Shown here piece by piece: positions 13,448-46,642 of a stretch of 64,000 bases of DNA; position 1 is the first letter of the stretch; every line of letters begins with the position of its first letter. The DNA lies in contig NZ_CP041191.1 of assembly GCF_006517275.1 (NCBI RefSeq), forward strand, positions 4,893,001-4,957,000, in the 5' to 3' direction. Source of the stretch: Labrenzia sp. PHM005. Lineage in GTDB: Bacteria; Pseudomonadota; Alphaproteobacteria; Rhizobiales; Stappiaceae. The notes under the pieces are model-generated. The model searched no databases. It had not been told where the DNA came from and was given only the letters and a program-made list of their open reading frames with translations. The position numbers and the translations under genes are program-made.

Positions 13448-14803
13448 TCAGTTAGACAGCACTGCGAGATCGACCGGGTCCGGAATGCCGCCAACCGAGC
13501 TTGCACGGCGGATGTCCACAGCAGGTCCGGAATAACCTTGCGCTTTTGCAAGTTCCAGCGATGCACAATCGGTCAAAGCGGTACTTTTCTGCGCTTTATT
13601 GGCATCTTCCAGCTTGGCCGCCCGGTTAACCGCATCGCCGATCACTGTAAATTCAAGCCGGTCCTTGGATCCGATCACCCCGACCGTGACCGGACCGGCA
13701 GCGACCGCCGTGCCGATCCGCAATTCGTACGGCCAGCCGGCATCCTTGAACCGGTCCTGCGCCGACTTGACCGCTTCCGCCAACCCTTGTGCTGCACGCA
13801 AGGCATCGGCGGCATAGGTCTGCGATGGCGCCACTGCGCCAAAAGTGGCCAGGATACCGTCCCCCAAGAACTTATCGACCTGTCCGCCTTCCCGATTGAT
13901 CACCTCAACGGCCAGATTCTGATATTCTGCGAGCACCGCTAGAACCTTTTCCGGCGGCAGCAGTGCCGATGTCGATGTAAACGATCGGATGTCGGCATAG
14001 AGGATCGCAGCTTCCCGAAGACTGCCCTCCCCGGCCTCCAAGGCTTGATGGGCGTCGGTAATGGAAGACGCCACTTCCGGCGCAAAGAACCGTTTCAGAT
14101 CCTCAGCTGCGCTATGTTCCCGCGTTGCTTCAAACAGCATTGATCGCCCGCGGAACAGGGCGACGGACAACAGCACCGTGACGGCTAATATGACCATGGT
14201 CTTGTCGAGTTCCGCACCGATCAGGATGCTGTTGCCGGTGAGATATTCAACATAGTTGCGGGTCACCCGCATGCCGCCCATGTCTGAAAAAACCGCGTAA
14301 AACACCAACCCGATCCAGCCAGCGATTGCAACCATTCCCGTGGTTAGAACAAATCTTGGATCGAACCGCAGCGCCCGCAACCCAATGAAAATGAAGACAT
14401 ACATCAAGGTCGGTGTCTTCAAATAAAAGGTCGGATGCTGGTCATATTGAATATGGAAGGAAAAAATCAGCCCGACGAGAAGTGCCATATCCACGCAAAT
14501 GGATATCAGCAGAAACCATTGCGGCAATTCAAAGCGGTAGGACAGCGCCAGCCGGGTGACGGTGAAAAGGAAATAAGTCCCAAGTGCAATCGGCACAAAA
14601 TTGAACCCGGCAGATCCTTCCGCCCGGGGCGCAATGATATAGAGCGTTGAAAAAAACAGGACGAGCGCCAGTTGGACCCAACCGATCAGCCGCTCAGACG
14701 CGGCCTCACGCGCTGCGATTTCCGCCCGAACTCGATCGGGCAGGCCGGTGTCCGGCGGTCCGCCACGCAAAATATATCGGATGGTTTCGCTCAATCTCGC
14801 CAT
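13448..14803 (-). CDS. Membrane-bound class III adenylate cyclase
   Basis: The 451-residue protein has six membrane segments in residues 38-218 and a C-terminal cyclase domain from about 260. Catalytic residues are visible: metal-binding Asp271 (ILYADIRSFTS) and Asp315 (KFLGDGILATFG), substrate-defining Lys311 with Thr386 (the adenylate-type pair), and Asn393. The transition-state Arg four residues after Asn is Lys397 (VNRAAKLE). Such substitutions occur in rhizobial homologues, but activity should not be assumed. I chose the ATG at 14803; the longer 14857 start is less likely. No partner is evident. The product would be cAMP in response to an unknown membrane signal. Confidence 0.88.
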   Translation of the reverse strand: MARLSETIRYILRGGPPDTGLPDRVRAEIAAREAASERLIGWVQLALVLFFSTLYIIAPRAEGSAGFNFVPIALGTYFLFTVTRLALSYRFELPQWFLLISICVDMALLVGLIFSFHIQYDQHPTFYLKTPTLMYVFIFIGLRALRFDPRFVLTTGMVAIAGWIGLVFYAVFSDMGGMRVTRNYVEYLTGNSILIGAELDKTMVILAVTVLLSVALFRGRSMLFEATREHSAAEDLKRFFAPEVASSITDAHQALEAGEGSLREAAILYADIRSFTSTSALLPPEKVLAVLAEYQNLAVEVINREGGQVDKFLGDGILATFGAVAPSQTYAADALRAAQGLAEAVKSAQDRFKDAGWPYELRIGTAVAAGPVTVGVIGSKDRLEFTVIGDAVNRAAKLEDANKAQKSTALTDCASLELAKAQGYSGPAVDIRRASSVGGIPDPVDLAVLSN

Positions 14804-14880
14804 GGCACACCCGTTGACTGTTGGGCTGAATGTCGCTGCTGACGCCCAGTTTGACAAGCCGACCGCGCCGGAATGTGAGC

Positions 14881-16056
14881 TTATGTGATTGCCCCGGCAT
14901 TTGGAGCATCTGAACCGGACATACGCAACTTCTCAACAGCCATAACGAGATCCGCCTGGCGTCGGCAGCCGCTTTTTGATAGCGCCGATTTGATCTGATT
15001 GCGCACCGTATGGATGCTCACAGACCGGTGGCTGGCAACTTCGGCTGCCGTCATGCCATCCGCCAGAAGTAATGCGATCTCAGCTTCCACCTGACTCAAA
15101 CCAAGCGTACTCTGGACCACACCACCAATTTCCAGAACCGGCGCTTCCGCCTTTAGTGCCAACAAGAGCGCGGCAGTTGATCTGTCAAAAAAAGCGCCAA
15201 AGGGCGAGCGGTCCATGTCGCCAAGGCACAATCCGATCGCCCGGCAGGTCCAGCTTTGTCCCCTTTCACCGTCAATGTGCCAGCTTCGGAAGACCGATTG
15301 TTTGCCTTTGGATTGAAGGCGCGCCAGCTGAGCAATGCATGTCTGGACGGAAGATGAGGTAAGCCGCAATTTCCCGCCTAAGCTGGTCTGGATTGGCTCA
15401 CCGCGCTCAATCAACCGTTCAGCTTCCGAGCTGGCATAATGAATCCGCATCTCGGGATCGACCAGAACGACAGCTGTTTGCGATCCCAATTTGTGCTGAT
15501 CAGCAGCCCATTTTTCAAAGGACAGGCCCGAGATCATCCGGTTGATTTCCAAAGACTGGCGCATGATCGGGGCGATGCGTGCGCACAAGGACAACCAGCG
15601 TTGCTCGTGGCCTTCTTGATCTTTGGCGCGCATGTTGCCGCCGAACAGGAACATCCGGTTTTCATCGCGAAGAAGCAACGTCCCGCCGCCGTAATAAATG
15701 TCCTCTGACGGACGCAGCAAATCGGCATAAAAGCCGGTCTTTTTCATAACCTCAGCAGGACACAATTCAGTGGAAGAGGCAACTTGGCCCACCTTCATGG
15801 CCTCAAAGTTTAGCGCGTAAGGATTTTCATCGAGATAGTGCTCTTGGTAGAGCTCCAAGATTTCGGGGTCATAGCCAGATGCATATGCAAGCGGGGCGGC
15901 GCTAGTTTCAAGATCGTATCCCATGATCTGGGTGCAGACCTGAGGCCCAAGGACCCTGCCAAGGGAATCAACAACTTGCTGCCAGCGATCAGGTTCCATG
16001 GCCGCTGCAAGGATGTCATTAGAAACATCCGCAAATTGTTCAACTGTAACTGGCAC
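14881..16056 (-). CDS. LuxR-type transcriptional regulator
   Basis: The 391-residue protein ends in a LuxR helix-turn-helix (LGLSQVEAEIALLLADGMTAAEVASHRSVSIHTVRNQIKS split over residues 325-365). The N-terminal ~300 residues look like a sensory region with a PAS-like segment (VVLVDPEMRIHYASSEAERLI near 205-225). No receiver domain and no acyl-homoserine-lactone-binding motif are evident, so it is not a response regulator and probably not a quorum-sensing receptor. The GTG start follows GGAGGG. The 300 bases upstream hold structured sequence (see 16225-16327). Target genes are unknown. Confidence 0.82.
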   Translation of the reverse strand: MPVTVEQFADVSNDILAAAMEPDRWQQVVDSLGRVLGPQVCTQIMGYDLETSAAPLAYASGYDPEILELYQEHYLDENPYALNFEAMKVGQVASSTELCPAEVMKKTGFYADLLRPSEDIYYGGGTLLLRDENRMFLFGGNMRAKDQEGHEQRWLSLCARIAPIMRQSLEINRMISGLSFEKWAADQHKLGSQTAVVLVDPEMRIHYASSEAERLIERGEPIQTSLGGKLRLTSSSVQTCIAQLARLQSKGKQSVFRSWHIDGERGQSWTCRAIGLCLGDMDRSPFGAFFDRSTAALLLALKAEAPVLEIGGVVQSTLGLSQVEAEIALLLADGMTAAEVASHRSVSIHTVRNQIKSALSKSGCRRQADLVMAVEKLRMSGSDAPNAGAIT

Positions 16057-16357: not shown

Positions 16358-17182
16358 TCACGGTGTCAAAAGCATGCCTTCGCGGGCAACGACTGTTCCG
16401 GGATGGATTTTTTGCGCCGCTTGGCCAATCTCATCGAGTTCATCATCAGACCGGCATGGATCATGATGAAACAATACGGGAGTTTTGACTTTGGCGGTTT
16501 GGGCCAGTTCGACAGCTTTTTGCCAGGTTGAATGCCCCCACCCCTTGAACCTTTCATATTCGGCATCGGTGAACATGGCGTCGTAGATCATGATATCCGC
16601 GCCTTGAACAAACTTTGGCAACGCGGCATCGATTTCGGGGTCTCCATGTTCATGATCAGTAATGATGCAAATGGACTTGCCTTGATAGTCGAACCGGTAT
16701 CCGCACGCACCGCCCGGGTGGTTGAGGCGGACCGTTTTGATCACCAAATCATCGGTCCTTGGCAGGGCATCTCCTGCCGTAAAAGTTTTGAAGTCCACAG
16801 CCTTCAGTGTTTTGGCCGCGACTGGAAAAATCGGCGGCGACATGATCCGGCTGACAATGTCCACCAAACTGGTGCCATCTTGGAAATGCCCGGCCCAGGC
16901 TGTTACGGAGAAATTGGGATCGTATGCGGGCTTAAAGAACGGCAGGCCACAAATGTGATCGAGGTGCGTGTGCGTGAACAGAAGATCAAAGGAGCGAGAC
17001 CCGGCGCAGCACAATTCCAGTCCCAGATTGCGGGCACCTGATCCACAATCGATCTGCACGAGCGCATCACCGGCCCGCAGCTCAAAACAGGCTGTTTCGC
17101 CGCCATACCGCAGAGTTTTTTGACCAGGCGTTGGTGTCGACCCGCGCACGCCCCAGCACCGAAGTGAGAAATTCTCTGCCAC
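16358..17182 (-). CDS. MBL-fold metal-dependent hydrolase
   Basis: The 274-residue metallo-beta-lactamase-fold enzyme has the motifs THTHLDHICG near residue 90, LNHPGGACGYR, the Asp in IITDHEHGD, and a late FHHDP. The N-terminal CWGVRGSTPTPG with GGETACFEL is typical of the cyclic-nucleotide-phosphodiesterase-like / RNase Z-like branch often encoded beside cyclic-nucleotide-binding genes. The GTG at 17182 follows AAGGAG. It lies 10 bases after the cNMP-binding gene and so is in one operon with it and probably the ABC gene. A phosphodiesterase role is possible but unproven. Confidence 0.82.
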   Translation of the reverse strand: MAENFSLRCWGVRGSTPTPGQKTLRYGGETACFELRAGDALVQIDCGSGARNLGLELCCAGSRSFDLLFTHTHLDHICGLPFFKPAYDPNFSVTAWAGHFQDGTSLVDIVSRIMSPPIFPVAAKTLKAVDFKTFTAGDALPRTDDLVIKTVRLNHPGGACGYRFDYQGKSICIITDHEHGDPEIDAALPKFVQGADIMIYDAMFTDAEYERFKGWGHSTWQKAVELAQTAKVKTPVLFHHDPCRSDDELDEIGQAAQKIHPGTVVAREGMLLTP

Positions 17183-17192
17183 TTACAACTCC

Positions 17193-17675
17193 TTACCCGC
17201 CGCTGTTGCCCTGACGGGCTTCAGCTAGATCCCGGGTCGTGCGTTCCAAACGTAAGGCCAACGTCCGCATCACTTCCAGCGAGATATCCGGAAACTCATT
17301 CAAAAGCTTTAAGAAATCGTCTTTTGAGACCATCAGCACATCCATGCTGTTGGCGGCAACCAGAGTGGCCGTTCTTGGAACGTCGCAAAGAATTGCGATT
17401 TCGCCGACGATGGAGTTCTCCGAAACCTGGGCGACCTTCTTTTCACCCGCTGGGGTTTGCACCAGAACATCAGCATCACCAGCCAGAATGATAAACGCGC
17501 TGTCGCCTTCCTCCCCTTGCGTACACAGGCGTTCCCCCGCCTGAAACTCAGTCCTGTCGCTGATAAAAGCCAGCAACCGGAGCTTTGTTTCGTCAATGCC
17601 GCGGAACAAGGGCACTTTACGCAGTGCTTCAACTTCGGCTTCAAGCGTCACAATCTTCTCCATAGAGCCATTCAT
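17193..17675 (-). CDS. Stand-alone cyclic-nucleotide-binding protein
   Basis: This 160-residue protein is a single CNB domain. It runs from LRKVPLFRGIDETKLRLLAF through a jelly-roll with the phosphate-binding cassette VGEIAILCDVPRTATLVA (Glu and Arg conserved as in cAMP-binding proteins) to a helical tail. It has no DNA-binding domain, unlike CRP/FNR. It may therefore act on a partner protein. I chose the ATG at 17675, preceded by AAGGGG. The gene lies 70 bases after the ABC gene and 10 bases before the MBL gene. A cNMP-controlled switch for this export locus is inferred. Confidence 0.85.
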   Translation of the reverse strand: MNGSMEKIVTLEAEVEALRKVPLFRGIDETKLRLLAFISDRTEFQAGERLCTQGEEGDSAFIILAGDADVLVQTPAGEKKVAQVSENSIVGEIAILCDVPRTATLVAANSMDVLMVSKDDFLKLLNEFPDISLEVMRTLALRLERTTRDLAEARQGNSGG

Positions 17676-17744
17676 TCGGCCCCTTCGTGTTATTCCCCTC
17701 AAACCCGGCCTAAACAGCCGGCCACTTTTCTGTCCGGTACCGTG

Positions 17745-20330
17745 TTATTTTTTTGCGTCCAATACACGCCCCTGATCCAAGGTAAACCCATGTTCAAACT
17801 CAGCGGCAATTTCGGCATTGGATGTTCCGAACAGAAATGTCTTTCCGGACAATATGCTTCTGAGGTTTTCGCGCAAGACTTTGTCGTCTTCCGTCAGTCC
17901 AGTCGCTATATCGTCCAAGATGGTTGTTTGTGCGTTTTTCAGAAGCCCGCGGACCAGCGCGATCTTGCGCCGCTGTCCTGCAGACAGGCGCGACCCGGCC
18001 ACGCCGACATGATAACCGAACCCGGCAAAAATGATCGGCTGGCGTAGTCCGGTTTCTTCAACAATGGTGCGGATCACTTCGTCGATCCGCCGACGGGCGT
18101 CCCGGCGGTCGACACGGGCGCGGCCGAACAGCAGGTTGTCTTCGATCGTCAACGGCGGCAGATAAACCTTAGGATCGAACGCGACAAACTCTTGGTTTGC
18201 AGCAACGACTTTGTCGAGGAACTTGGTCCGCGCCGCGATGATTTCCGCCTTCAGTTCGTCGGTCATCACACCCAAGCGATGGCGGGCCGGAACCAGCTTG
18301 AAGGCAAGCCCAGTCAAGCGAGAACGGTCATTGTCGGTCAAGCCTGGGCGGGTTTGTCCCGACCGCGCGATCCGCACGATCCGCTCGAATTCCGGCAGAT
18401 CATCCTGGGTAATGAACGAATATGATCCCAAAAGCCCGCTGCTGCCAGAGACGTTGGAGAAGAGTTCCAGCATGGTTTCGGCGATCTGCAGACCAATGTC
18501 TTGAAGTTTTTTGTCAAATCCGTTGCTGGATAAGAACTCCTTGACCACCGGCAAATCTGGCACCTGATCCATTGTGATTTCCGGATCAGAGGGAACGGCA
18601 AAAAACAGGTTGTCGGCAAGGCTGGCGCTGGCATTGAACGTGCTGGGATCCCACAGCTCCACGAGCCCGGCAAGCGTCGGATCTGCTGCAATCCTGTCCG
18701 CCAATTCCTTGCGCACATTCAAGATCCGTTCGGCAAACGTGTCATTCATCGACGGATCAAACCGGGATTGGAGCCCAAGCCGGTAAATATCGGCATCCAA
18801 TTTCACCGCAGCCAATAGCTCCAGTGCTTTCAGATCCAAGTCGTCGGCATTGTCGACGCCGGCGATCGCCAGATCATGCCATTCCGCCTCGAGATCATAG
18901 GACGGATTTTTTGTCTCTTTAGCTTCGCTGAGGCTTCGTTTGTAGTTTTTGAGTGCGTCGCCTTCACGCTGAACCTCAGTCATCGGCCTATGCCGGAGAC
19001 CGTAATAGAGGTTTTCCCGAATCGTCCCGGTCCAGACATGGACGGCGCCACCGACATAAGCGATTTCACGGCCAAGGGTTGAATCGGTCAATTTGTCGAG
19101 ATCGTGATCACCGATACAGACCTTTCCGCTCGCCGGTGACACCAGGCCAGCGGCCAATTGGAGGACTTCCGCTCGGCCCGAACCATCCGCACCGACAATT
19201 GCGCTGGAGGTCCCGCTCTTGATCGTAAGGGACACATCGGTCACTTCCTGACCCGCGGCACCACCAGAAAACGCCACATGTTCAAACTTCAGATCACCAC
19301 GCAGTTTTACAGTTTCATCAGCGGTCAGCCGCTCTGTGTCATAGATGTCTTGCGGATCAAAGTTTTCGACAACCGTTTGGTATTTAATGCCGACATCAAC
19401 TGTCATCTGGTAATAGGCCAGCAATTCTTTCCAGGGACCGGCAAGGTCCTTATAGGCGGCGATGACAGCCAGCAGAGCGCCGATACTCAAGTTCCCCTCA
19501 ATCACCAGGTAACCGCCGATCAGGTAGAAGAAGAACGGCGTCAACTGATTCATGAAGTTGTTGAGAAACTTGATGAAAAACTTTCTGTTGTAGATTTCGT
19601 AGCGGATCTTGAAGTTTTCAAAGAGGCGGTCGGAAATGTCGGCCGAATGCCAGGCGGAAGCATCATTGGCGTGAATCTCGGCAACACCCGTAATACTCTC
19701 GCCTACCTTATCGGAGATAAGACGTATGTTTTTGACCCGCTTGCGTGACAGCAACGCCACTTTCTTTTGCAACATCGGGATAACATAGCCCTGGACAGGG
19801 TAGGACGAGATTGCGGCGAGGCCCAGAAGCGGGTCTTGCATGAAAATAAAGCCGAGCTGAACAACCAGCATACCGCCTTGGTAAGCAGGCAGAGAGAAAG
19901 CCTCCCCGACGAAACCGCCAACATCCTCCACTTCCGATGTGATCATCGGAATGATTTCACCGGAGCTGACTTTGCGGAAATGCGGCAGCCGGAACCTTAG
20001 AACACGTTGGAAAAGTTCGAACCGCAACCGGCGAAGCATGCGCTCGCCGAGGCGGCCTTTATAAACATTCAAATAAAATTTCAGCCCGTTGGAGACCACC
20101 ACGAGGGTAAGAAAGCAGCAGCACAGAAAAAGCAAATACGGGATTTGATCGAGGTCGAAGCCCAAAATAGTGCGCGGAAAATTGTCTCCCTGGACTGCGT
20201 CATTGACGATCAATTTCGGCAGCTCAAGCAGGATATAGATGACCGGATAGGTCAGAACCGTGATCAGAAGAATGTAGATTTGCTGGCGTGCGCTGTACTT
20301 CCAAATGAAGCTAAAAAGGCTTTTTTCCAT
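17745..20330 (-). CDS. Aberrant ABC exporter-like protein with long NBD insertion
   Basis: The 861-residue protein has an N-terminal six-helix exporter-type membrane domain (residues ~15-305) and one C-terminal nucleotide-binding domain. That domain is unusual. Walker A reads GADGSGRAE (from 380), with Arg for Lys and Ala for Ser/Thr. The signature is LSAGQ (782-786). Walker B ends ILDD, with Asp for the catalytic Glu, and the H-loop reads FGTSN without His. Between the Q-loop region and the signature lie about 280 extra residues. These contain two further copies of the TIREN-type element: SLADNLFFA (570) and TIEDNLLFG (728), besides TIRENLYYG (436). I chose the first ATG (20330, after GGAAAAG) over an upstream TTG. 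It is divergent from the glycosyltransferase operon and is probably linked to it. A non-hydrolytic or weak ATPase is predicted. Confidence 0.85.
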   Translation of the reverse strand: MEKSLFSFIWKYSARQQIYILLITVLTYPVIYILLELPKLIVNDAVQGDNFPRTILGFDLDQIPYLLFLCCCFLTLVVVSNGLKFYLNVYKGRLGERMLRRLRFELFQRVLRFRLPHFRKVSSGEIIPMITSEVEDVGGFVGEAFSLPAYQGGMLVVQLGFIFMQDPLLGLAAISSYPVQGYVIPMLQKKVALLSRKRVKNIRLISDKVGESITGVAEIHANDASAWHSADISDRLFENFKIRYEIYNRKFFIKFLNNFMNQLTPFFFYLIGGYLVIEGNLSIGALLAVIAAYKDLAGPWKELLAYYQMTVDVGIKYQTVVENFDPQDIYDTERLTADETVKLRGDLKFEHVAFSGGAAGQEVTDVSLTIKSGTSSAIVGADGSGRAEVLQLAAGLVSPASGKVCIGDHDLDKLTDSTLGREIAYVGGAVHVWTGTIRENLYYGLRHRPMTEVQREGDALKNYKRSLSEAKETKNPSYDLEAEWHDLAIAGVDNADDLDLKALELLAAVKLDADIYRLGLQSRFDPSMNDTFAERILNVRKELADRIAADPTLAGLVELWDPSTFNASASLADNLFFAVPSDPEITMDQVPDLPVVKEFLSSNGFDKKLQDIGLQIAETMLELFSNVSGSSGLLGSYSFITQDDLPEFERIVRIARSGQTRPGLTDNDRSRLTGLAFKLVPARHRLGVMTDELKAEIIAARTKFLDKVVAANQEFVAFDPKVYLPPLTIEDNLLFGRARVDRRDARRRIDEVIRTIVEETGLRQPIIFAGFGYHVGVAGSRLSAGQRRKIALVRGLLKNAQTTILDDIATGLTEDDKVLRENLRSILSGKTFLFGTSNAEIAAEFEHGFTLDQGRVLDAKK

Positions 20331-20559
20331 CAGCTTTTCCGTACAGGTCTGGATCAATCCTAATGCACATTGTCCGAATTTGGGATACTAGGTCCAGCAA
20401 TCGAACGTGCCTGCCAAGATCGAAACTTGCCACACAATAATAAATTCGCGCCGCTGCTTCTTGTCGATAGTCACCAGAGTATCTGATATCTGGACGTGAC
20501 AACGGCTATCCTTATGAGACATAAAGCCTACGGGGCCGCATTACAATTCCAGGGGCAGT

Positions 20560-21777
20560 ATGAGTTCCACCACACCGAAGATCCTGATCTACAGCCATGA
20601 CTCTTTCGGGCTTGGCCACTTGCGCCGGTGCCGGGCGATTGCCCAGTCTTTGGTCGGCGACTTCAGTACGCTGTCTGTCCTGATTCTGTCAGGCTCACCG
20701 ATCATTGGCAGTTTTGAGTTCCGTGCGCGGGTTGATTTTGTCCGCATTCCGGGCGTGATCAAGTTACGAAACGGCGAATACACACCGCTGTCGCTACACA
20801 TCAACATCGATCAAACCCTGGCCATCCGGTCCTCCATCATCGAGCATACGGCCAAGGTTTTTGAACCAGATATCTTTATTGTCGACAAGGAACCGACGGG
20901 TTTTCGCGGGGAAGTGCTTGGCACTTTGGAAGCACTCAAAGGCACGGACACCCGTCTTGTCTTGGGTTTGCGCGATGTGATGGACGATCCGGAAACGCTC
21001 GCAGAGGAATGGGACCGGAAAAATGTCTACCCGGCCTTGGAAAACCTTTACGATGAGATTTGGGTTTATGGCCCTGAGGGAATTTGCGATCCACTCGACG
21101 GCTTGGATCTCCCCGCCACGATAACGGACAAGCTTCGCTACACAGGATACCTGCGCCGGAACCTCCCGAAGTCTGCAGAAGACCAGCCTGCGCCTGCCCC
21201 ATTTGGCGAAGAGCCGTACATTTTGGTCACGCCCGGCGGCGGCGGCGATGGCGTTGAAATGGTCGACTGGGTCATGAAGGCCTATGAAGCCCGTCAGCGC
21301 CCGCTCTTTCCCGCCCTGATTATTCTTGGCCCATTTATGCCGGCCGCCGCGGCAGCCGACTTCACCGAACGGGCCGAACACCTGCGTGACGTGGAGGTTC
21401 TGCGCTTCACGCCACAGATTGAGCCTTATTTGAACAGCGCGACTGCAATTGTCGGCATGGGCGGCTACAACACCTTCTGCGAGATCCTGTCGTTCGACAA
21501 ACCGACCTTGATGGTGCCCCGAGTGGTTCCGCGCAAAGAACAGGCAATCCGGGCTGAGCGGGCTGAAAAAAGTAACCTTTTGAAGGTTCTGCCGATCGAT
21601 CATTACCCGGATGCGGACCTGATGGCCCTGGCTCTTTCAGAACTGCCGCAATCGCCGCCGCCGAGCACTGCGGGTGTCGACAATCTTCTGGGCGGCCTTG
21701 AGGTTGTCGGCCAGCGGGTTGGAGAGATTTTTGCAGCAAAGCAAGAAACCCTTGCACCAAAACTGGTCAATTTCTAA
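20560..21777 (+). CDS. Glycosyltransferase, MurG/GT28-like
   Basis: The 405-residue protein has a two-domain GT-B layout. The N-terminus carries IYSHDSFGLGHLRRCRAIAQ, a glycine-rich acceptor loop of MurG type. The C-terminal nucleotide-sugar domain carries VTPGGGGDG and GMGGYNTFCEILSFDKPTLM near residue 300, typical of GT28-like enzymes. No signal peptide is present, so it acts in the cytoplasm or on the inner face of the membrane. The ATG follows CAGGGG. It is the first gene of a six-gene + strand operon and shares a 229-base divergent promoter region with the ABC gene. Donor and acceptor are unknown. Confidence 0.85.
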   Translation: MSSTTPKILIYSHDSFGLGHLRRCRAIAQSLVGDFSTLSVLILSGSPIIGSFEFRARVDFVRIPGVIKLRNGEYTPLSLHINIDQTLAIRSSIIEHTAKVFEPDIFIVDKEPTGFRGEVLGTLEALKGTDTRLVLGLRDVMDDPETLAEEWDRKNVYPALENLYDEIWVYGPEGICDPLDGLDLPATITDKLRYTGYLRRNLPKSAEDQPAPAPFGEEPYILVTPGGGGDGVEMVDWVMKAYEARQRPLFPALIILGPFMPAAAAADFTERAEHLRDVEVLRFTPQIEPYLNSATAIVGMGGYNTFCEILSFDKPTLMVPRVVPRKEQAIRAERAEKSNLLKVLPIDHYPDADLMALALSELPQSPPPSTAGVDNLLGGLEVVGQRVGEIFAAKQETLAPKLVNF

Positions 21778-21818
21778 CGTCCCGTTCCTGCCAATTCCAA
21801 AGATCTGAAGTCTTGTAA

Positions 21819-23039
21819 ATGTCCCGTATTGCCGTAGTGGTCAAAGGCTATCCACGCCTGTCTGAAACTTTTATTGCCCAGGAAATTCTGGGACTGGAAC
21901 GGCGGGGAATTGAAATTCTGATCGTCGCCCTGCGCCAGCCGTATGACCCGTACATTCATGATCTTCACCGGCAGATTTCAGCCGAAGTGATGTATCTGCC
22001 GGAATACGTCAAGGACGATCCGGCCCGGGTTGCCCGGGCCAAGCGTTGGGCCCAGACGCAACCGACCTACGAAGCAGCCAAAGCGCTGTTTGACAAGGAC
22101 TTTGCTCAGGAAAGCAATGCCAACCGCCAGCGGCGGTGGGCACAAGGCTGTGTCTTTGCCCATGAACTGCCTGAGGATGTGACCTGGATCCACACGCACT
22201 ATCTGCATACCCCGTGTTCGGCATCCAGGTACGCGGCCCATTTGGCAGGCCGGCAATGGTCATTTTCCGCTCATGCCAAAGATATCTGGACCAGCCCGGA
22301 ATGGGATCTTCGGACAAAACTGGATGATTCCGCCTGGGGCGTTACCTGTACCGGTGTAAACGCGGAATATCTCAAGAGCCTCAGCCAGGATCCGGACAAG
22401 GTAGAACTTGTCTATCACGGCCTGGACTTCTGCGGCTTCCCAATGCCCTCGGAAACACCGTCAGCACGGGACGGCAGCGGCGCGCCGGTACAACTTCTTT
22501 CCGTTGGCCGTGCGGTGGAAAAGAAAGGCTACAACGACCTTTTGACCGCGCTTAACAAGCTGCCGGATGACCTCAACTGGCACTTCACGCATATCGGCGG
22601 CGGCGCGCTTTCGGAAAAACTGAAAGCCCGGTCAGAAAAACTTGGATTGTCGGACAAGATTACCTGGCGCGGGGCACAGCCACGCGAAGAGGTGATCAAG
22701 TCGTGCCAGGAAGCGGATCTCTTCGTCCTGCCGTCCAAACTCACCAAATCCGGCGACCGCGATGGCATCCCGAACGTTTTGATGGAAGCCCAATCCATGG
22801 GCATTTGCTGCCTGTCGACCAATGTCTCGGCCATACCTGAACTGATCACAGATGGGGAAACGGGCCGACTTGTCCCGCCAGCCGAACCGGCAACTCTTGC
22901 CAAGGCCCTGGAAGAGCTGATTAAAGATCCGAAGGAACGCGACCGGCTTGGCCACGCATCGGCCAACAACGTGCGCACAAATTTTGCGACCCATCCGGGA
23001 CTGGACCATTTGGCGGAGAAATTCCGAAAGGTGATTTAG
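21819..23039 (+). CDS. Family 4 glycosyltransferase (WcaL-like)
   Basis: The 406-residue GT-B enzyme begins VVVKGYPRLSETFIAQEILG, the signature of the colanic-acid WcaL-type branch of GT4. The C-terminal domain holds LLSVGRAVEKKGYNDLL, then the donor-binding E-x7-E segment DGIPNVLMEAQSMG and ISELI-like IPELITDGETG. It transfers a sugar from a nucleotide sugar to a growing glycan or lipid. It lies 41 bases after the previous glycosyltransferase gene; its ribosome site is weak, so translation may depend on reading of the upstream gene. Confidence 0.88.
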   Translation: MSRIAVVVKGYPRLSETFIAQEILGLERRGIEILIVALRQPYDPYIHDLHRQISAEVMYLPEYVKDDPARVARAKRWAQTQPTYEAAKALFDKDFAQESNANRQRRWAQGCVFAHELPEDVTWIHTHYLHTPCSASRYAAHLAGRQWSFSAHAKDIWTSPEWDLRTKLDDSAWGVTCTGVNAEYLKSLSQDPDKVELVYHGLDFCGFPMPSETPSARDGSGAPVQLLSVGRAVEKKGYNDLLTALNKLPDDLNWHFTHIGGGALSEKLKARSEKLGLSDKITWRGAQPREEVIKSCQEADLFVLPSKLTKSGDRDGIPNVLMEAQSMGICCLSTNVSAIPELITDGETGRLVPPAEPATLAKALEELIKDPKERDRLGHASANNVRTNFATHPGLDHLAEKFRKVI

Positions 23040-23066
23040 GACCCAAAACGAAAAGAGTCATCCTCC

Positions 23067-24221
23067 GTGAAGATTGCCTTCACAGCCCCGATGAAACCGC
23101 TGGACGATCCACAGCCATCGGGCGACCGCACCATGGGCCGGCTGATCCTAAGGGCGCTGGAAATTGGCGGTCATGAGGTCCGCATCGCGACCCGCTTCCG
23201 GTCTTGGCGTAAGGAAGGCGGCGACAATGCTCTCCTGGCGGTCAAGAAAGCTGCACTGGAAGAAGCTGAACGGATTGGCGATGCCTGGACACGTGAAGGC
23301 TACCGGCCGGACCTTTTCCTGACCTATCACCTTTATCACAAGGCTCCGGACTGGATCGGCCCGGCACTCGCCGACCGCTTTGACGTGCCATATGCCGTGA
23401 TTGAGGCAAGCCGCGCCCGCAAACGCCGCACAGGCCCTTGGGCTGTTGGCTTTCAAGGAGCTGATGATGCGCTGAAACGCGCCGATGGGATAGCCGCGCT
23501 GCATAATTGGGACCGGGACCGTCTCTTGCCGTTTTTTGAAGAAACGGAAACAGATCCGGCTAAGCGGCTGCGAACGGTTTTGCCGTTTCTCGATCTGAGC
23601 GCTTTTGGATCAGTCGGCAACGCTTCACCCAGCACAGAGCCTGCAGAGCCTTTAAAATTGCTGACCGTTGGCATGATGCGCGAAGGGGACAAGACGGCCT
23701 CCTATGAGGTGCTGGCAGCAGCGCTTTCAGAACTCGTAGACCGTCCCTGGCAACTGACGGTTGTTGGCGATGGGCCGAACCGCGAGAAAATTCTCAGCAA
23801 GTTCCCGCAAGACAGGATCACCTGGCTCGGTGCGCTTTCGCCGGAAAATGTGATTGTCGAATATCCGAAGCATGATCTGTTTGTCTGGCCGGCGATCCGG
23901 GAAAGCTTTGGGTTTGTGCTGCTCGAAGCCCAGGCCTCCGGCCTCGGCGTGATTGCCGGGGATGCGCTCGGTGTCCCGGAAATCATGGCCGATGGCACCT
24001 CCGGACTGCTAGCGCCGGAAGGCGCTTCCTCAGCGTTTGCCGCCAAGTTGCGGCAGGTTCTGGACACTCCGGCGCTTGCCGGACAGTTCGGGGAGGCGGC
24101 CAAAATCCGCATGATCGAGGTGCATTCGCTTCAGGCAGGTGCGGAACGGCTTGACGCCTTTCTCAAAGCCGCACTAGACCACTACCAACACCGCCAGCTT
24201 GACCAAGCCAAGGATCGCTGA
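23067..24221 (+). CDS. Family 4 glycosyltransferase
   Basis: The 384-residue GT-B enzyme starts at a GTG 27 bases after the previous gene. The C-terminal domain is clearly GT4: LKLLTVGMMREGDKTASYEVL, LTVVGDGPNREKI, and the E-x7-E motif RESFGFVLLEAQASGLGVI followed by GVPEIMADGTSGLL. The N-terminal acceptor domain is less conserved (MKPLDDPQPSGDRTMGRLIL) and resembles a group of GT4 proteins that begin with a Pro/Gly-rich loop. Part of the six-gene glycan operon; sugar specificity is unknown. Confidence 0.87.
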   Translation: MKIAFTAPMKPLDDPQPSGDRTMGRLILRALEIGGHEVRIATRFRSWRKEGGDNALLAVKKAALEEAERIGDAWTREGYRPDLFLTYHLYHKAPDWIGPALADRFDVPYAVIEASRARKRRTGPWAVGFQGADDALKRADGIAALHNWDRDRLLPFFEETETDPAKRLRTVLPFLDLSAFGSVGNASPSTEPAEPLKLLTVGMMREGDKTASYEVLAAALSELVDRPWQLTVVGDGPNREKILSKFPQDRITWLGALSPENVIVEYPKHDLFVWPAIRESFGFVLLEAQASGLGVIAGDALGVPEIMADGTSGLLAPEGASSAFAAKLRQVLDTPALAGQFGEAAKIRMIEVHSLQAGAERLDAFLKAALDHYQHRQLDQAKDR

Positions 24222-24226
24222 ACACC

Positions 24227-25384
24227 ATGCCCCTTTCCGCCTTTATCTACGTTCAACATCTTTTGGGCACCGGCCATGTGGTACGGGCAACGGCAATCGG
24301 CAAGAAGCTTGCCGAACGCGGTGTCGACGTTACCCTGGCCTCCGGCAACCAGATCCCGCCAACCCTCGATGTCGAAGGTCTCGAAGTACTTGAGCTCCCA
24401 GGCGCCAAGACGGCCAATGCCGAATTCTCCCGGCTGATCACACTCGACGGCAAGGACCTGGACGATGACTGGCGGGCAATGCGAACTGCCGCAACCCTCA
24501 AGGCCTTCGCCGCCAAGCCCTACGACCTTCTTTTGACCGAGACCTACCCTTTTGGCCGCCGGCAGTTCGAGTTTGAGCTTTCTGTTTTGATGGATACGGC
24601 GAAAAACCGGGACAATCCGCCGGTGATCGCCAGTTCCATCCGCGACATTCTGGTGCCCAAGCAACAGCTTTGGAAAGAAGAGTGGATGGCTGATAAGGCC
24701 CGTGATTATTTCGACACGGTGCTGATCCACGCCGACCCGGATTTCATCACGCTGGCCGACAGTTTTCCCTTTGCCCACAAGGTGGAAGACCTTCTGGCCT
24801 ATACCGGTTACGTGGTGCGTGAGGGCGACCGGCCGGAGCCGCCGGACGGCGATGGCGAAGACGAAGTGGTCGTCTCCTGCGGCGGCGGTGCCATGTCGGA
24901 AAGCCTGCTCAGCGCGGCTATCGATGCCAGGCCCCTCTCGCGGCGGGGCGGAGACTGCACCTGGCGGGTTCTGGCCGGCCACAATGTGCCGGAAGACGAA
25001 TATCAGGACTACAAGGCCCGCGCTGGTGATGGTGTCATCGTCGAACGGGCCCGGCCCGATTTTCCGGGCCTTTTGAAGCGCGCACGCCTTTCCATCAGCC
25101 AGGGCGGCTACAACACGGTTCTTGACGTTTTAGAAGCCGGGGTTCCCTCCGTGATCGTGCCCTTCGCGCTGGCAACGGAGACCGAGCAGGAGCAGCGAGC
25201 CAAGGCCCTGGCAAACCATGGCCGGGTGGTGGTCGCCAGCGAGGACATGCTGACACCGGAGCGTCTTGCACAGGCCGCCGACGATGCGCTGGCACTGCCC
25301 CGCAGTCATCACAAGGTTCTTTTGGGCGGCGCGGATCGCAGTGCAGACATCTTGATGGAAAAACTTAAAGGCTGCAGCGCATGA
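24227..25384 (+). CDS. Glycosyltransferase, MurG/GT28-like (second)
   Basis: The 385-residue protein has the same architecture as the first gene of the operon. It begins YVQHLLGTGHVVRATAIGKK (glycine-rich acceptor loop) and ends with a donor domain carrying SISQGGYNTVLDVLEAGVPS and VPFALATETEQEQRA. It starts 5 bases after the previous stop and its own stop overlaps the next start (ATGA), which implies tight coupling. The two GT28-like enzymes flank the two GT4 enzymes, so a product of at least four sugar additions, or parallel branches, is plausible. Confidence 0.85.
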   Translation: MPLSAFIYVQHLLGTGHVVRATAIGKKLAERGVDVTLASGNQIPPTLDVEGLEVLELPGAKTANAEFSRLITLDGKDLDDDWRAMRTAATLKAFAAKPYDLLLTETYPFGRRQFEFELSVLMDTAKNRDNPPVIASSIRDILVPKQQLWKEEWMADKARDYFDTVLIHADPDFITLADSFPFAHKVEDLLAYTGYVVREGDRPEPPDGDGEDEVVVSCGGGAMSESLLSAAIDARPLSRRGGDCTWRVLAGHNVPEDEYQDYKARAGDGVIVERARPDFPGLLKRARLSISQGGYNTVLDVLEAGVPSVIVPFALATETEQEQRAKALANHGRVVVASEDMLTPERLAQAADDALALPRSHHKVLLGGADRSADILMEKLKGCSA

Positions 25385-26154
25385 ACGCGGATCTCGACCG
25401 CTTCCGCTCAGAGCTGACGGCCCATCTGGACTGGTTCGCCGAGCACGGCCGCAAGGTCCGTTTTTGGTGGCGTGACGATGACGCGTTTGAGCCGACGCCA
25501 CCGCTCGACCGGATGCTTGGGCTTGCCAACAAACATAATGTTGAAATCGCTCTCGCCGTTATTCCGAAGAACGCTGGCGAGGCCTTGAGCGCCCGCCTGG
25601 AGACCGAACCGCTTGCGCAAGTGCTGCAACACGGCTGGCACCACAAAAACTATCAGCGCAAGGATCTTGGCGAGCGCGCGGCCGAACTCGGCAGCCGCCG
25701 GGACATGGACGAACTGCGCGCCCAGCTCACAGACGGCAAGGCCAACCTTGAGCGGCTCTTTGGAACCAAATTCATTCCGGCCATGGTGCCACCGTGGAAC
25801 CGGATTGCCCGGCCGGTTGCCGATATGCTGCCGGAGATCGGCCTGCCGGGTCTCTCAACCTTTACCTGGCTCAACGCGCCGCGCGCCCATCAGGTCCAGA
25901 GCCACGTCGACATCATCAAGTGGAAACGCGAAGTCCGCTACATCGGCTGGAAAAGCGCCGCACAGCGGTTTGACCTGCAGCTTTGCCGACGCCGGACCAA
26001 CCCACAGGAGCCGCTCGGCATTCTGACCCATCATTTGGTCCATGACGACGGTTGCTGGGAATTTCTGGACGAGTTTCTCGCCATTGCCGCCCACCACCCG
26101 GGGGCTGAGTGGCCACACATCAAAGATCTTTTTGCCTGTCCGCCGACCTTATAA
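25381..26154 (+). CDS. Polysaccharide deacetylase-like protein
   Basis: The 257-residue protein fits a divergent NodB-homology fold. The metal-binding Asp lies in RFWWRDDDAFEPTPPLDRM (residues ~34-52) and the two His in LQHGWHHKNYQ near residue 80. VPPWNRI near 135 corresponds to the Arg/Pro-rich motif 3. It would remove acetyl groups from an amino sugar or glycan. There is no signal peptide, so it may act on a cytoplasmic precursor, unlike most exported deacetylases. Its ATG overlaps the stop of the preceding glycosyltransferase by 4 bases. Confidence 0.82.
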   Translation: MNADLDRFRSELTAHLDWFAEHGRKVRFWWRDDDAFEPTPPLDRMLGLANKHNVEIALAVIPKNAGEALSARLETEPLAQVLQHGWHHKNYQRKDLGERAAELGSRRDMDELRAQLTDGKANLERLFGTKFIPAMVPPWNRIARPVADMLPEIGLPGLSTFTWLNAPRAHQVQSHVDIIKWKREVRYIGWKSAAQRFDLQLCRRRTNPQEPLGILTHHLVHDDGCWEFLDEFLAIAAHHPGAEWPHIKDLFACPPTL

Positions 26155-26174
26155 ACCGTTGAAGGCCTGCCGTT

Positions 26175-26480
26175 ATGACCGACACGCTTTATCTGCTGAA
26201 ACCCGGATTTGAAGATCCTGCCTATCCGGACACAACCTTCTATTGCTGGCACTGCGCCCTCATGGAAGGCGTGCTGGCGTCCTTCCCGGAACTTGGTGCG
26301 GACCTGGACGTCAAGCGTATCGCCTGGCCGCGTCCGCGAACCGAAATCGTTGAGCTTTTAGGTGAAGAAAACCAGAGCCTGCCGGTGCTGATCCTGGACG
26401 ACGGCGGTTTCATTGATGACAAGGATTCCATTCTGGAAGCGCTCACAGAACGTCACGGATTTCCGGAGCCACATCCGTAA
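26175..26480 (+). CDS. DUF3088 family protein
   Basis: The 101-residue protein matches DUF3088: LYLLKPGFEDPAYPDTTFYC followed by WHCALMEGVL, KRIAWPRPRTEIV, and LPVLILDDGGFIDDKDSI. It looks like a thioredoxin/glutaredoxin fold with a CWHC motif at residues 24-27 and a cis-Pro (SLPVLIL). A redox or thiol-transfer role is conceivable but undemonstrated. It is the last gene of the glycan operon, 20 bases after the deacetylase gene, with GAAGG before its ATG. Confidence 0.78.
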   Translation: MTDTLYLLKPGFEDPAYPDTTFYCWHCALMEGVLASFPELGADLDVKRIAWPRPRTEIVELLGEENQSLPVLILDDGGFIDDKDSILEALTERHGFPEPHP

Positions 26481-29280: not shown

Positions 29281-29913
29281 ATGTCTCACGATCACAGCCA
29301 TGATCACGATCATTCGGAACTCTCCGAAATCGAATTGCGCGTGCGGGCGCTGGAAACGCTTTTGACCGACAAGGGATACATCGATCCGCCCGCGCTCGAT
29401 GAGCTGATCGAGACCTATGAAACCAAGATTGGCCCGAAAAACGGTGCCCGGGTGGTGGCAAAAGCCTGGTCTGATCCGGATTATCTGGACCGGCTGAGAC
29501 GTGATGCGACCGCAGCGATTGCCGAATTCGGTTTCACCGGCCGTCAGGGCGAACACATGGTGATTGCCGAAAATACCGAAGACACCCACAACATGGTCGT
29601 CTGCACCTTGTGTTCCTGTTACCCGTGGACCGTTCTGGGCCTGCCGCCGGTCTGGTACAAATCCGCACCCTACCGCTCCCGTGCGGTGCGCGACCCGCGC
29701 GGGGTTCTGGCCGAATTTGGTGTCACCTTGCCGGAGGACAAAGAAATCCGGGTGTGGGATTCGACCGCAGAAGTCCGCTATCTGGTGATCCCCGAACGGC
29801 CTACAGGCACTGAGGACTGGCCGGAGGAAAAACTCGCTGAGCTCGTCACCCGGGACAGCATGATCGGCACTGGCCTCGCTCTTAACCCTGCCACTTTGGA
29901 GGTGTCCTCATGA
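29281..29913 (+). CDS. nthA: Nitrile hydratase alpha subunit, cobalt type
   Basis: The 210-residue subunit carries the metal-claw motif VCTLCSC (Cys108, Thr109, Cys111, Ser112, Cys113) followed by YPW. Thr in the second position marks the Co(III) class; Fe enzymes have Ser. In the mature enzyme two of these Cys are oxidised. The enzyme hydrates nitriles to amides in the cytoplasm as an alpha-beta heterodimer. An unusual His/Asp-rich start ([11 protein letters not shown]) may bind metal. GGAG precedes the ATG by 7 bases, and the stop overlaps the beta-subunit start (ATGA). Confidence 0.95.
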
Positions 29914-30569
29914 ATGGCGCGCAGGATCTCGGCGGCCAGATGGGATTCGGCCCGATCGAGCTGGAAGAAAACGAGCCGAATTTTCACGCCAAGTGGGAAG
30001 AACGGGCCTTTGCCATCACGCTTGCCATGGGCGCCACCGGCAGCTGGAACATCGATACCTCGCGCCATGCCCGAGAAACGCTGCCGCCGCCGATCTATCT
30101 GAGCTCCAGCTACTACAAGATCTGGACTCTCGGCCTGGAAAAGCTCTGTCTCGACAAGGATCTGATCACAAAGGAAGAACTTGCCAGCGGCACAGCTCAA
30201 GACCCGGCGAAACCAGTCAAACAGATCCTCAAGGCAGACAATGTCGCCGCCGTTTTGGCCAAGGGCGGACCGGCCGACCGGCCGGAAAACGCCCCTGCCC
30301 GCTTCAAGACGGGAGACAGGATCCGCACCAAACGCATGCACCCGGAAGGCCATACCCGCCTGCCCCGCTATGCCCGTGATACGATCGGCACCATCGATGC
30401 TGTTCATGGCGTGCATGTCTTCCCGGATGCCAATGCTCATGGGCGCGGCGAACAGCCCACCTGGCTCTACAGCGTTGCTTTCAAGGGTACAGATATCTGG
30501 GGGCCGGACAGCGACCCCAAACTCACTCTTCGGATCGATCTTTGGGAGCCTTATCTTGACCCTGCCTGA
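29910..30569 (+). CDS. nthB: Nitrile hydratase beta subunit
   Basis: The 219-residue protein starts [16 protein letters not shown], the invariant beginning of NHase beta chains. Later conserved parts are [37 protein letters not shown] and [26 protein letters not shown] and the final [14 protein letters not shown] also match. The Arg residues that contact the oxidised cysteines of the alpha chain are present. The 4-base overlap with nthA ensures equal translation. The accessory gene overlaps its end by 14 bases. Confidence 0.95.
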
Positions 30570-36455: not shown

Positions 36456-37049
36456 TCAAACAACCGGTTTCACCAGCCGCATGCGCCAGGTGACATTCTT
36501 CTTGTCAGACTGAAGCCTATAATCGTCCAGAACGTCCCATTTGCTGTCGTCGCTTGTGGCGTCCCAAAGCTTGGCGATCAGCTTGTTGGCACCGGACTCC
36601 GGCTTGTTCGGTGCATACATGGACAGTGCAATGACACCGTCCTCTTTCAGGAACGGCACATAACGGGCAACAACTGCAGCAGGATCTTCAGCGAAATGCA
36701 GAACTTCGTTGAAAACAATCGCCGAGAACTGCTCGCCTTCGTTTGGTTCAAAGGTATGCATATCGCCCGCGCGCAAGGAGGCAATTTCCGGATCTACGTC
36801 CGCGATTTCCAAAGAGGCCGGTGACAAATCCATACCGACATACCGTTTGACACCCATCGGCTGAAGCCGCTCATAAAGCAAACCTTCGCCACAGCCGATA
36901 TCCAACACTTCATCCATGGAGTTGGTCAGCGTCAACCACATGCCGATGATGCCATAACGGCCGCTTTCCGGCAGCGAGCGCAAAAAGGCCCAGCGCCCGG
37001 CTTCGTATTCTTCATCCCAGCCTTCGGCAGTGCTCGCGTTTTTCGACAT
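36456..37049 (-). CDS. SAM-dependent methyltransferase (importer operon, last gene)
   Basis: The 197-residue class I methyltransferase has the SAM-binding motif EVLDIGCGEGLLYERL near residue 48, acidic YVGMDLSPASLEIA (motif II), and FNEVLHFAEDP (motif IV region). TLxGS-like FLKEDGVIALSMYAPNK follows. It methylates a small molecule; the acceptor is unknown. The ATG at 37049 follows TTGGAG. It lies 62 bases after the permease stop and is the last gene of the peptide importer operon, which suggests that it acts on the imported substrate. Confidence 0.85.
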   Translation of the reverse strand: MSKNASTAEGWDEEYEAGRWAFLRSLPESGRYGIIGMWLTLTNSMDEVLDIGCGEGLLYERLQPMGVKRYVGMDLSPASLEIADVDPEIASLRAGDMHTFEPNEGEQFSAIVFNEVLHFAEDPAAVVARYVPFLKEDGVIALSMYAPNKPESGANKLIAKLWDATSDDSKWDVLDDYRLQSDKKNVTWRMRLVKPVV

Positions 37050-37111
37050 ATCTACTCCAATGGACAGAGCGGGCCAAACCGGCCCGCCAGTACAAATCAT
37101 TTCTCAAGGGA

Positions 37112-38293: not shown

Positions 38294-39315
38294 GATGCAG
38301 CCCCCCCGCCAAGACGGATCCTTGGATCCAGCACTGCCAGGAGGAGATCGGAAATCAACATGCCGATCAGAGTGAGTATGGCAACGAACAGCAGCACAAA
38401 TCCGGCCAAAAACTGATCTTGCGATTGCAAGGCCGACAAAAGAACCGGGCCTACAGTCGGTAAGCTCATGACAACCGAAACAATGACCGAACCGGAGACC
38501 AGAGACGGGATCAAGTTCCCGATATCGGCAATAAACGGGTTGATCGCCATGCGCAGCGGATATTTCACCAACAGCTGGCCTTCCTTCAAGCCTTTGGCCC
38601 GGCCAGTAGTGACATATTGCTTGTGAAGTTCATCCAGAAGATTTGCGCGCAGACGCCGGATCATGCCGGCCGTACCAGACGTTCCGATCACGACAGTGGG
38701 CACGATCAGATGGGCCAAAACCGACATCGCCTTGTCGAAACTCCAAGGTTGATCGATGTATTCGGGAGACATCAGCCCTCCGACGGACAGGCCGAACCAA
38801 CGATTGAAGAAATAAAGGAGGATCAGCGCAAGCAAGAAGTTTGGCGTTGCCAACCCCACGTATCCAATGAACGTAAACCCATAATCACCCCAGGAGTACT
38901 GGCGGGTAGCTGAATAGATGCCGATAGGGAAAGACACCACATAAACGAACAGGATCGTCGCGAAATTGAGAACAACGGTCAGCGGCAATGTCGGCCCGAT
39001 CACGTCAGCAACGGGTTTGTCGAATTCAAATGACCAGCCCCAATTGCCTTGCAAAAGGCCGTCGAAGCCGTGCGGACCCGGCCACATGCCGATCCAGATC
39101 AGGTACCGCTCAAAAAACGGACGATCGAGGGAAAACTCCTTACGCAAGAATTCCAGCTTGGCAATAGAGGATTGTTCACCGGAGGTCTTCAGCGCGGCAA
39201 TCTGGTTGGAAATGTAATCGCCGGTCGGCAATTCAATAATGAAGAACACCAGAAAGCTGATCACGAACAAGGTCGGGACCATCATCAATATCCGGCGCGA
39301 AATATAGTACAGCAC
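38290..39315 (-). CDS. Oligopeptide-type ABC permease (DppB/OppB-like)
   Basis: The 341-residue inner-membrane permease begins with the OppB signature YYISRRILMMVPTLFVISFL and has six helices. The EAA loop is TTGRAKGLKEGQLLVKYPLR. It pairs with the OppC-like permease for ATP-driven import of peptides or similar molecules. The GTG at 39315 follows GGGGAA, and the stop overlaps the next start (ATGA). Confidence 0.92.
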   Translation of the reverse strand: MLYYISRRILMMVPTLFVISFLVFFIIELPTGDYISNQIAALKTSGEQSSIAKLEFLRKEFSLDRPFFERYLIWIGMWPGPHGFDGLLQGNWGWSFEFDKPVADVIGPTLPLTVVLNFATILFVYVVSFPIGIYSATRQYSWGDYGFTFIGYVGLATPNFLLALILLYFFNRWFGLSVGGLMSPEYIDQPWSFDKAMSVLAHLIVPTVVIGTSGTAGMIRRLRANLLDELHKQYVTTGRAKGLKEGQLLVKYPLRMAINPFIADIGNLIPSLVSGSVIVSVVMSLPTVGPVLLSALQSQDQFLAGFVLLFVAILTLIGMLISDLLLAVLDPRIRLGGGAAS

Positions 39316-39386
39316 CTACAATTCCCCTCAGCCCAATCCCTGCACGGGTTTCCCCAACCCGCGCACAGCACCTTACAGCCTTATTA

Positions 39387-46628: not shown

Positions 46629-46642
46629 GAAAACTCCAAAAA

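Follow-up and report, generated by a model that had tools for sequence, protein, structure and literature searches.

A conserved alphaproteobacterial gene set joins glycosyltransferases to a cyclic-nucleotide-binding protein and an ABC exporter homologue with a degenerate ATP site

We analysed a 64,000-nt stretch (the window) of the 6.19-Mb genome of Labrenzia sp. PHM005, contig NZ_CP041191.1, in which an operon of four glycosyltransferase (GT) genes faces genes for an ATP-binding cassette (ABC) exporter-like protein, a stand-alone cyclic-nucleotide-binding (CNB) domain and an MBL-fold hydrolase. A sequence-only reading of this DNA had proposed that nine genes form a system, gated by cyclic AMP (cAMP) or cyclic GMP (cGMP), that builds and moves a glycan or glycolipid. 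Eight of these nine genes, all but that for a DUF3088 protein, are together with a cyclase gene one conserved system.

Genes at the locus

All nine open reading frames (ORFs) were found with positions and strands as described, and eight of the nine family names are backed by Pfam matches; the deacetylase candidate matches no Pfam or NCBIfam family at E 0.001. The plus-strand genes form the tight operon described before, with gaps from GT28a to the DUF3088 gene of 41, 27, 5, −4 and 20 bases, and a region of about 200 bases separates this operon from the divergent minus-strand block (ABC-CNB-MBL). Just beyond the range originally considered, also on the minus strand, lie genes for a LuxR-type regulator and a class III cyclase (CYC). 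The features, with positions in the window, are as follows (NBD, nucleotide-binding domain).

13448-14857, minus strand: CYC, membrane-anchored class III adenylate/guanylate cyclase, 469 aa; PF00211 (Guanylate_cyc) 43.9 bits, cut-off 21.9
14881-16056, minus strand: LuxR-type regulator, 391 aa; GerE 20.3 bits, slightly below the cut-off of 23.5
16358-17182, minus strand: MBL, MBL-fold hydrolase, 274 aa, candidate cyclic-nucleotide phosphodiesterase; PF12706 (Lactamase_B_2) 61.0 bits
17193-17702, minus strand: CNB, stand-alone cyclic-nucleotide-binding domain; PF00027 (cNMP_binding) 66.6 bits, cut-off 27.5
17745-20357, minus strand: ABC, exporter-like, with degenerate ATP site and large NBD insert; PF00664 (ABC_membrane) 63.1 bits, cut-off 28; ABC_tran 58.4 bits
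18033-18992, minus strand: NBD insert with ENL repeats 2 and 3, residues ~456-775 of ABC; conservation of Asn583 and Asn741, repeat profile match
20331-20559, no strand: divergent intergenic region between ABC and the GT operon; read from the sequence
20560-21777, plus strand: GT28a, GT28/MJ1255-like glycosyltransferase, 405 aa; PF04101 (Glyco_tran_28_C) 28.1 bits, cut-off 22
21819-23039, plus strand: GT4a, GT4 glycosyltransferase, EpsE/WcaL-like; PF00534 (Glycos_transf_1) 122.4 bits; NF041876 144 bits, cut-off 400
23067-24221, plus strand: GT4b, GT4 glycosyltransferase; PF00534 (Glycos_transf_1) 88.8 bits
24227-25384, plus strand: GT28b, second GT28/MurG-like glycosyltransferase; PF04101 51.0 bits, cut-off 22
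25381-26154, plus strand: DEAC, cytoplasmic NodB-like deacetylase candidate, 257 aa; invariant motifs, no Pfam match
26175-26480, plus strand: DUF3088 protein, outside the conserved set; PF11287 133.5 bits

As the sequence-only reading had stated, genes for sugar-nucleotide synthesis, Wzx/Wzy or carrier-lipid enzymes are absent from the 32 window ORFs scanned against Pfam (about 1-8 kb and 48-64 kb were unscanned), and the system presumably takes its sugar nucleotides from the general cellular pool. Neither a capsule ABC transporter nor Wza/Wzc was found among the same 32 ORFs, the rest of the genome not having been searched for them.

Conservation of the set across Alphaproteobacteria

Examined loci and sampled genomes carry L and G numbers, respectively. 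In species genomes, at least 594 stretches matched ABC, 532 of which encode a relative of it, and the best 80 loci, selected by similarity to ABC, were kept. CNB is present in all 80, and GT28a and GT4a in 78 each. The 51 nearest of these loci all hold ABC, CNB and GT28a, with GT4a, GT4b, GT28b and MBL in 50 each, DEAC in 49 and CYC in 46. Among the other 29, some of which are cut by contig ends, we counted CNB in 29, GT4a in 28, GT28a in 27, GT4b in 26, GT28b in 21, DEAC in 20, a histidine phosphatase in 15, MBL in 12 and CYC in 6. Few of the nearest loci hold the LuxR-type regulator (14 of 51) or DUF3088 (8 of 51, and 0 of the 98 more distant loci tallied), and we therefore regard both as local additions. 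The nine genes proposed as a unit are accordingly not the conserved unit: CYC, at 13448-14857 and thus beyond the range first considered, had been overlooked and belongs to the set, and DUF3088 is peripheral.

A whole-genome test, less biased than the selection above, covered 385 Alphaproteobacteria genomes (ABC at E up to 1e-40, GT28a at E up to 1e-60). ABC occurs in 132 of them and GT28a in 127; 125 have both, 7 have ABC alone, 2 have GT28a alone and 251 have neither (phi 0.948). A control gene, PhoX, is present in 141 genomes and has a phi of 0.53 with ABC; it gauges the contribution of shared ancestry by itself, for which reason Fisher p-values are not to be read literally. This comparison across Alphaproteobacteria, set beforehand as a test of the one-system claim, bears it out, with 125 of the 132 ABC genomes also carrying GT28a. 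The two genes lie within 8 kb of each other in 90 of the 125 genomes and apart or on different contigs in 35; the halves do not occur independently at the genome level, as these 35 unlinked genomes still hold both. In 17 regions around a GT28a distant from ABC, GT4a was found in 14, and GT4b, GT28b and DEAC in 13 each.

The genomes with ABC alone are explained in part: the ABC gene of G210 is interrupted, G255 and G071 are 63% and 82% complete, and in G283 the match is confined to the NBD and insert of a protein with a divergent membrane half. Of the two genomes with GT28a alone, G025 is 86% complete and G070 carries the mini-locus described below. At the G210 locus (L170:8862-10874), ABC is interrupted and GT28a undetected, while CNB, GT4a, GT4b, GT28b, MBL and a fragment of CYC are still there; the system may be decaying in this genome.

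In a phylum sample of 398 genomes, 28 match ABC; one of these, G490, lies outside the class and matches in the membrane half only. Gammaproteobacterial-labelled loci L076, L078 and L082 hold ABC with CNB and both GT4 genes. Alphaproteobacterial-type copies were also seen in records named Anaerolineae (L071) and Mycobacterium (L084, resembling the copies of Inquilinus), which are probably mis-binned or misnamed.

Gene order is reshuffled with the set retained

A class sample comprised 52 ABC regions from 51 genomes, hand-picked at about one per family from the 132 ABC-positive genomes. Gene gaps in these other loci come from the longest ORFs without stop codons and are biased towards overlap. 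GT4a is present in 39 of the 52 loci, GT28a, GT4b and the histidine phosphatase in 37 each, GT28b in 36, DEAC and a gene labelled CL2 in 29 each, and the Methyltransf_17 gene MT17 in 26. In the usual order, MT17-CNB-ABC diverges from GT28a-GT4a-GT4b-histidine phosphatase-GT28b-DEAC-CL2-peptide ABC importer, with median gaps inside the GT operon of −1 to 10 bases and MBL at the far end. The window instead has MBL and CYC after CNB, and its peptide importer and MT17, which in many other genomes follow the GT operon and adjoin CNB, respectively, lie at 36-48 kb. Other families that share the window's order have GT28a-GT4a-GT28b, then ABC-CNB-MBL, facing DEAC-GT4b; in 11 regions from such families, all eight genes lie within 20 kb in 6 (L229-L233, L238), the GTs are partial in 3 (L234, L237, L240) and no GT is present in 2 (L235, L236). 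Gene order has been reshuffled in at least three ways with the set kept together. The ABC gene that closes the GT operon of other genomes was considered as a second exporter, but the copies examined encode a double peptide-importer ATPase, and this reading was rejected.

Two features of the window lie in this outlying part:

36456-43875, minus strand: peptide-type ABC importer segment including two methyltransferases; ATPase 41983-43875, binding protein 40100-41986, permeases 38290-39315 and 37112-38293
47847-48344, minus strand: MT17, Methyltransf_17 protein; PF12692 186 bits

The whole of 36456-48344, which holds the peptide-type ABC importer, a HAMP class III cyclase, NUDIX, CoA-transferase and Methyltransf_17 genes, looks like the second part of an ancestral supercluster, displaced in this genome. 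Closely downstream of the locus, at 29281-30569, lie genes for nitrile hydratase alpha and beta subunits, with no connection to the system seen.

The ABC protein has a degenerate ATP site throughout the family

The nearest named relatives of ABC are from Roseibium/Labrenzia, and most relatives begin at the residue aligned with MEKSLF, about position 20330. Compared by profile with solved structures, ABC matches ABCB proteins (ABCB4/ABCB1) best, with MsbA lower in the ranking. The degenerate ATP site described for the window protein is real and extends to the family: the canonical Walker A GK[ST] is present in 2 of 146 aligned ABC proteins (window, GADGSGRAE). The Walker A lysine column has Arg in 87 and Lys in 43 of 134 (basic in 130), with Asp or Glu following in 36 of the 43 Lys-bearing proteins; in other families of the window's order, this position is often Ala or Gly. 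Walker B DE is found in 17 of 134 (window, DD), and GK[ST] and DE together in 1 of 134. The switch (H-loop) column has His in 30 of 134 (the window has FGTSN, with no His), and in the signature region, LSAGQ in the window, Gln is retained in 127 of 134 with variable middle positions. In the gene set we saw no half-transporter with intact ATP motifs that might act as a partner. From this family-wide degeneration we infer that ABC has lost normal ATP catalysis.

The ABC genes are not decayed, with no internal stop among the matches listed except in G210. Compared with the window protein, 133 relatives have a median identity of 62% over the membrane half and of 35-39% over the NBD and insert; in ordinary exporters it is usually the NBD that is conserved better. 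An insertion of about 320 residues splits the NBD of ABC and holds two further copies of the Q-loop/TIxENL-like segment. The Asn of the three ENL segments is kept in 144, 146 and 146 of 146 proteins, the last two being Asn583 and Asn741. Profile–profile comparison of these repeats, on hand-chosen segments and thus with optimistic E-values, gives probabilities of 98% for repeats 2 and 3, 93% for 1 and 3, and 82% for 1 and 2.

Five relatives of 339-413 aa consist of the membrane half only (L172:8168-9391, L173:8543-9781, L174:8671-9711, L175:8548-9747 and L176:8806-9822); their genomes also carry a full-length ABC, and the 20 kb around them is without system genes. At L171:7473-10022, in a genome that belongs to the same taxonomic order and lacks GT28a, the same type of NBD and insert sits on a divergent membrane half.

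The CNB domain is paired with or fused to ABC

For the relatives of CNB, the start was placed about 17 residues further in than that of the window ORF. Its profile matches the PKA and PKG domains of solved structures, and its phosphate-binding cassette GEIAILCDVPRTAT is conserved in 17 sequences, with Gly and Arg invariant and Glu in at least 90%; a Glu and an Arg are characteristic of such cassettes. Judged by its sequence, CNB should bind cAMP or cGMP. In the class sample, 44 of 52 loci have CNB no more than about 620 bases from ABC, 6 have it fused to the ABC C terminus and 2 (L151, L153) lack it. The ABC-CNB fusions comprise 7 proteins in 6 genomes, L177 included, and all 6 genomes carry GT28a and further GT genes elsewhere. 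A cyclic-nucleotide link of the system is supported by these fusions, by the conserved cassette and by the cyclase in the set; this much of the earlier cAMP- or cGMP-gating proposal stands, and gating itself we treat as a conjecture below.

A scan of the window for cAMP-CRP boxes gave 23 sites at up to 2 mismatches against 22.7 expected by chance, and no CRP control of the operon is therefore claimed. One perfect CRP-type palindrome, TGTGATCTAAATCACA, lies at 43985-44000 between the HAMP-cyclase gene (44059-45957) and the peptide importer ATPase; one such chance match per window is not very unlikely.

Candidate synthesis and removal of the messenger

A cyclase of the CYC family is present in 10 of 20 regions (~14 kb) fetched around distant MBL genes. 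In L146, L148 and L177, ABC loci outside the main layout, a distant cyclase, about 25% identical, stands beside the ABC or CNB gene. The window genome has 16 class III cyclase matches, of which CYC alone scores as a close orthologue (685 bits, next 206).

For MBL, the assigned fold stands. The HxHxDH motif and H155, D176 and H240 (that is, H71, H73, D75, H76, H155, D176 and H240) are invariant in 16 sequences and are presumably metal ligands. The phosphodiesterase-like branch named in the sequence-only reading finds a weak match to the phosphodiesterase model NF041851 (38.8 bits against a cut-off of 400), and MBL is at present a candidate for removing the messenger. MBL and ABC lie within 25 kb in 40 of 45 genomes compared on one contig, a biased subset noticed among the matches listed.

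Glycosyltransferases and the deacetylase candidate

GT28a is 55-68% identical to 17 of 19 aligned relatives and 47% identical to the other two; its profile has no match among solved structures at E up to 0.01. The DEAC profile likewise has none at E up to 0.1. The DEAC motifs RDDD, HGxxH, PPWNR, HxD and HH are invariant in 18 aligned sequences, and we take them to be the NodB-type catalytic set (Asp-Asp, HxxxH, Pro-Trp-Asn-Arg region, late His). The described lack of a signal peptide agrees with a simple hydropathy scan, which found no membrane segment in DEAC. The histidine phosphatase of other genomes' loci has weak matches alone in the window genome (37% and 30%), and a search there for a CL2 counterpart returned no match, an empty answer of little weight.

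A distant mini-locus, L196:4446-10151, has GT28-GT4-GT genes, after which come an ABC exporter whose ATP site is intact (GETGAGKS, LSGGQ, DE) and a likely UDP-sugar dehydrogenase, read from its N terminus. The intact exporter in this mini-locus suggests that the dead ABC goes back to an exporter belonging to the pathway itself; a working, ATP-driven exporter in the ABC slot may be the ancestral state.

Proposed mechanism and alternatives

Whether this is a glycan system under cyclic-nucleotide control, exerted through a catalytically dead ABC exporter homologue, we judge to be an even question. In the proposed mechanism, the two GT28-like and two GT4 enzymes would build a glycan or glycolipid in the cytoplasm, and the NodB-like deacetylase, elsewhere joined by the histidine phosphatase, would trim it. 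ABC would derive from a type IV exporter of the MsbA kind that kept its membrane part and lost normal ATP catalysis. CNB would dock on ABC, to which it is fused in some lineages, and binding of a cyclic nucleotide, in place of the ATP cycle, would switch the conformation. The cyclase would make the messenger and the MBL enzyme would probably remove it. The switch might then open a path for the glycan or turn on its synthesis, so that a regulated exporter and regulated synthesis are both live readings. More tentatively, and with the odds somewhat against it, we propose the specific form in which the ABC family gave up ATP hydrolysis and is opened or closed by cAMP or cGMP through the docked or fused CNB, making it a ligand-gated path for an envelope glycan.

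Several observations weigh against cyclic-nucleotide control of a single glycan system through ABC. The claimed linkage of the two halves is not strict: 13 of 52 class-sample loci have none of the four GTs in the fetched region, some being cut by contig ends, and 15 of 52 have no GT28a there. Three ABC-only genomes of high completeness (G044, G169, G266) have no explanation, and shared lineage inflates all the phyletic statistics, even PhoX reaching a phi of 0.53. The Walker A lysine kept in 43 of 134 ABC proteins leaves nucleotide binding possible. With 16 cyclase matches in the genome, a nearby cyclase is less striking. MBL orthologues occur in 177 of 385 genomes, 57 of the 385 having them without ABC, and their phi with ABC, 0.65, is not much higher than that of the PhoX control, so that MBL is tied to the system more by its neighbourhood than by its presence.

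The sequence-only reading had the system move the glycan. Because nearly all aligned ABC proteins have a degenerate ATP site, we do not take an ATP-driven exporter as the default. It is unlikely, in our estimate, that ABC nevertheless remains one, using an unorthodox site (GR or GK[DE] for GK[ST]) with CNB as a simple allosteric regulator: the basic residue in 130 of 134 proteins (R 87, K 43) and the signature Gln in 127 of 134 would fit such a site, but Walker B, the switch His and the Mg-binding Ser/Thr are freely variable, even the basic residue has disappeared from proteins of other families in the window's order, and the set shows no partner half-transporter with an intact site. The same degeneracy, together with the relatives reduced to a membrane half, would suit a different role, in which ABC-CNB is a membrane receptor or scaffold without a substrate, a cyclic nucleotide changes its shape so as to activate or localise the GTs, and another transporter exports the product. 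Receptors for c-di-GMP activate or localise the synthesis of other polysaccharides in a comparable way. We hold this to be rather improbable, though not remote, for conservation is highest in the membrane half (median 62%), as fits a path or substrate site, mini-locus L196 has a normal exporter in the ABC role, and what often comes after the GT operon is an importer of the peptide type and no exporter.

The remaining alternatives sever the direct contact between the halves. ABC, CNB, MBL and CYC might form a separate unit for cyclic-nucleotide homeostasis or efflux whose place next to the glycan genes reflects a shared role in the envelope. The 35 of 125 genomes in which ABC and GT28a are not within 8 kb on one contig, and the wider spread of MBL than of ABC, would agree with this, but presence is nearly one to one (125 of 132, 125 of 127) and differing gene orders hold both halves together, which makes it very improbable. 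Least credible of all is a chance neighbourhood or plain synteny with no shared function; it can draw on the lineage effect in the phyletic statistics, to which the PhoX phi of 0.53 points, against a phi of 0.95 for ABC and GT28a, the fusions, the near-zero gaps and a set conserved in reshuffled orders.

Comparison with known systems

In the openly licensed literature, judged from listings, no description of this gene set was found. Its parts belong to known families; what appears to be undescribed in the literature searched is how they are combined, that the ATP site is lost throughout the family, and that ABC and CNB can be fused. The direct second-messenger control known for bacterial polysaccharides is mostly by c-di-GMP. 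If the proposed mechanism holds, cAMP or cGMP would provide a new control principle for glycans, and the ABC fold would be run in a new way, in a system whose ABC is common to 132 of 385, about one third, of the sampled Alphaproteobacteria. As the gene set is defined and comes in natural fusions and rearranged layouts, the glycan and the gating idea are directly testable.

ABC shares its transmembrane family and the origin of its NBD with the type IV exporters and flippases of the MsbA/ABCB kind, but departs from them in lacking a canonical Walker A in 144 of 146 proteins, in having the switch His in 30 of 134, and in adding the ~320-residue NBD insert and a CNB partner or fusion. Heterodimeric exporters with one degenerate ATP site keep the other of the two intact. 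Degenerate ATP-site motifs, as in ABC, are reported for MsRv1273c/72c, TM287/288 and BmrCD (PMC12038006, PMC5216877, PMC4046567). In contrast to these exporters, no intact partner half was seen in the gene set of ABC.

MlaF is an active ATPase. In the MlaFB complex, a small bound domain is reported to control an ABC transporter (PMC7367683), much as we propose for the CNB-ABC pair. MlaB, however, is a STAS protein and no nucleotide sensor. In the c-di-GMP-controlled polysaccharide synthases BcsA/PilZ and Alg44, the messenger acts directly on glycan production; here the messenger would be of the cyclic mononucleotide class, the sensor fold is another one and no membrane synthase was seen. The same sensor domain as CNB occurs in bacterial proteins other than CRP, such as the SthK channel and the acetyltransferase Pat, but in the system described here it stands alone, paired with an ABC protein or fused to it.

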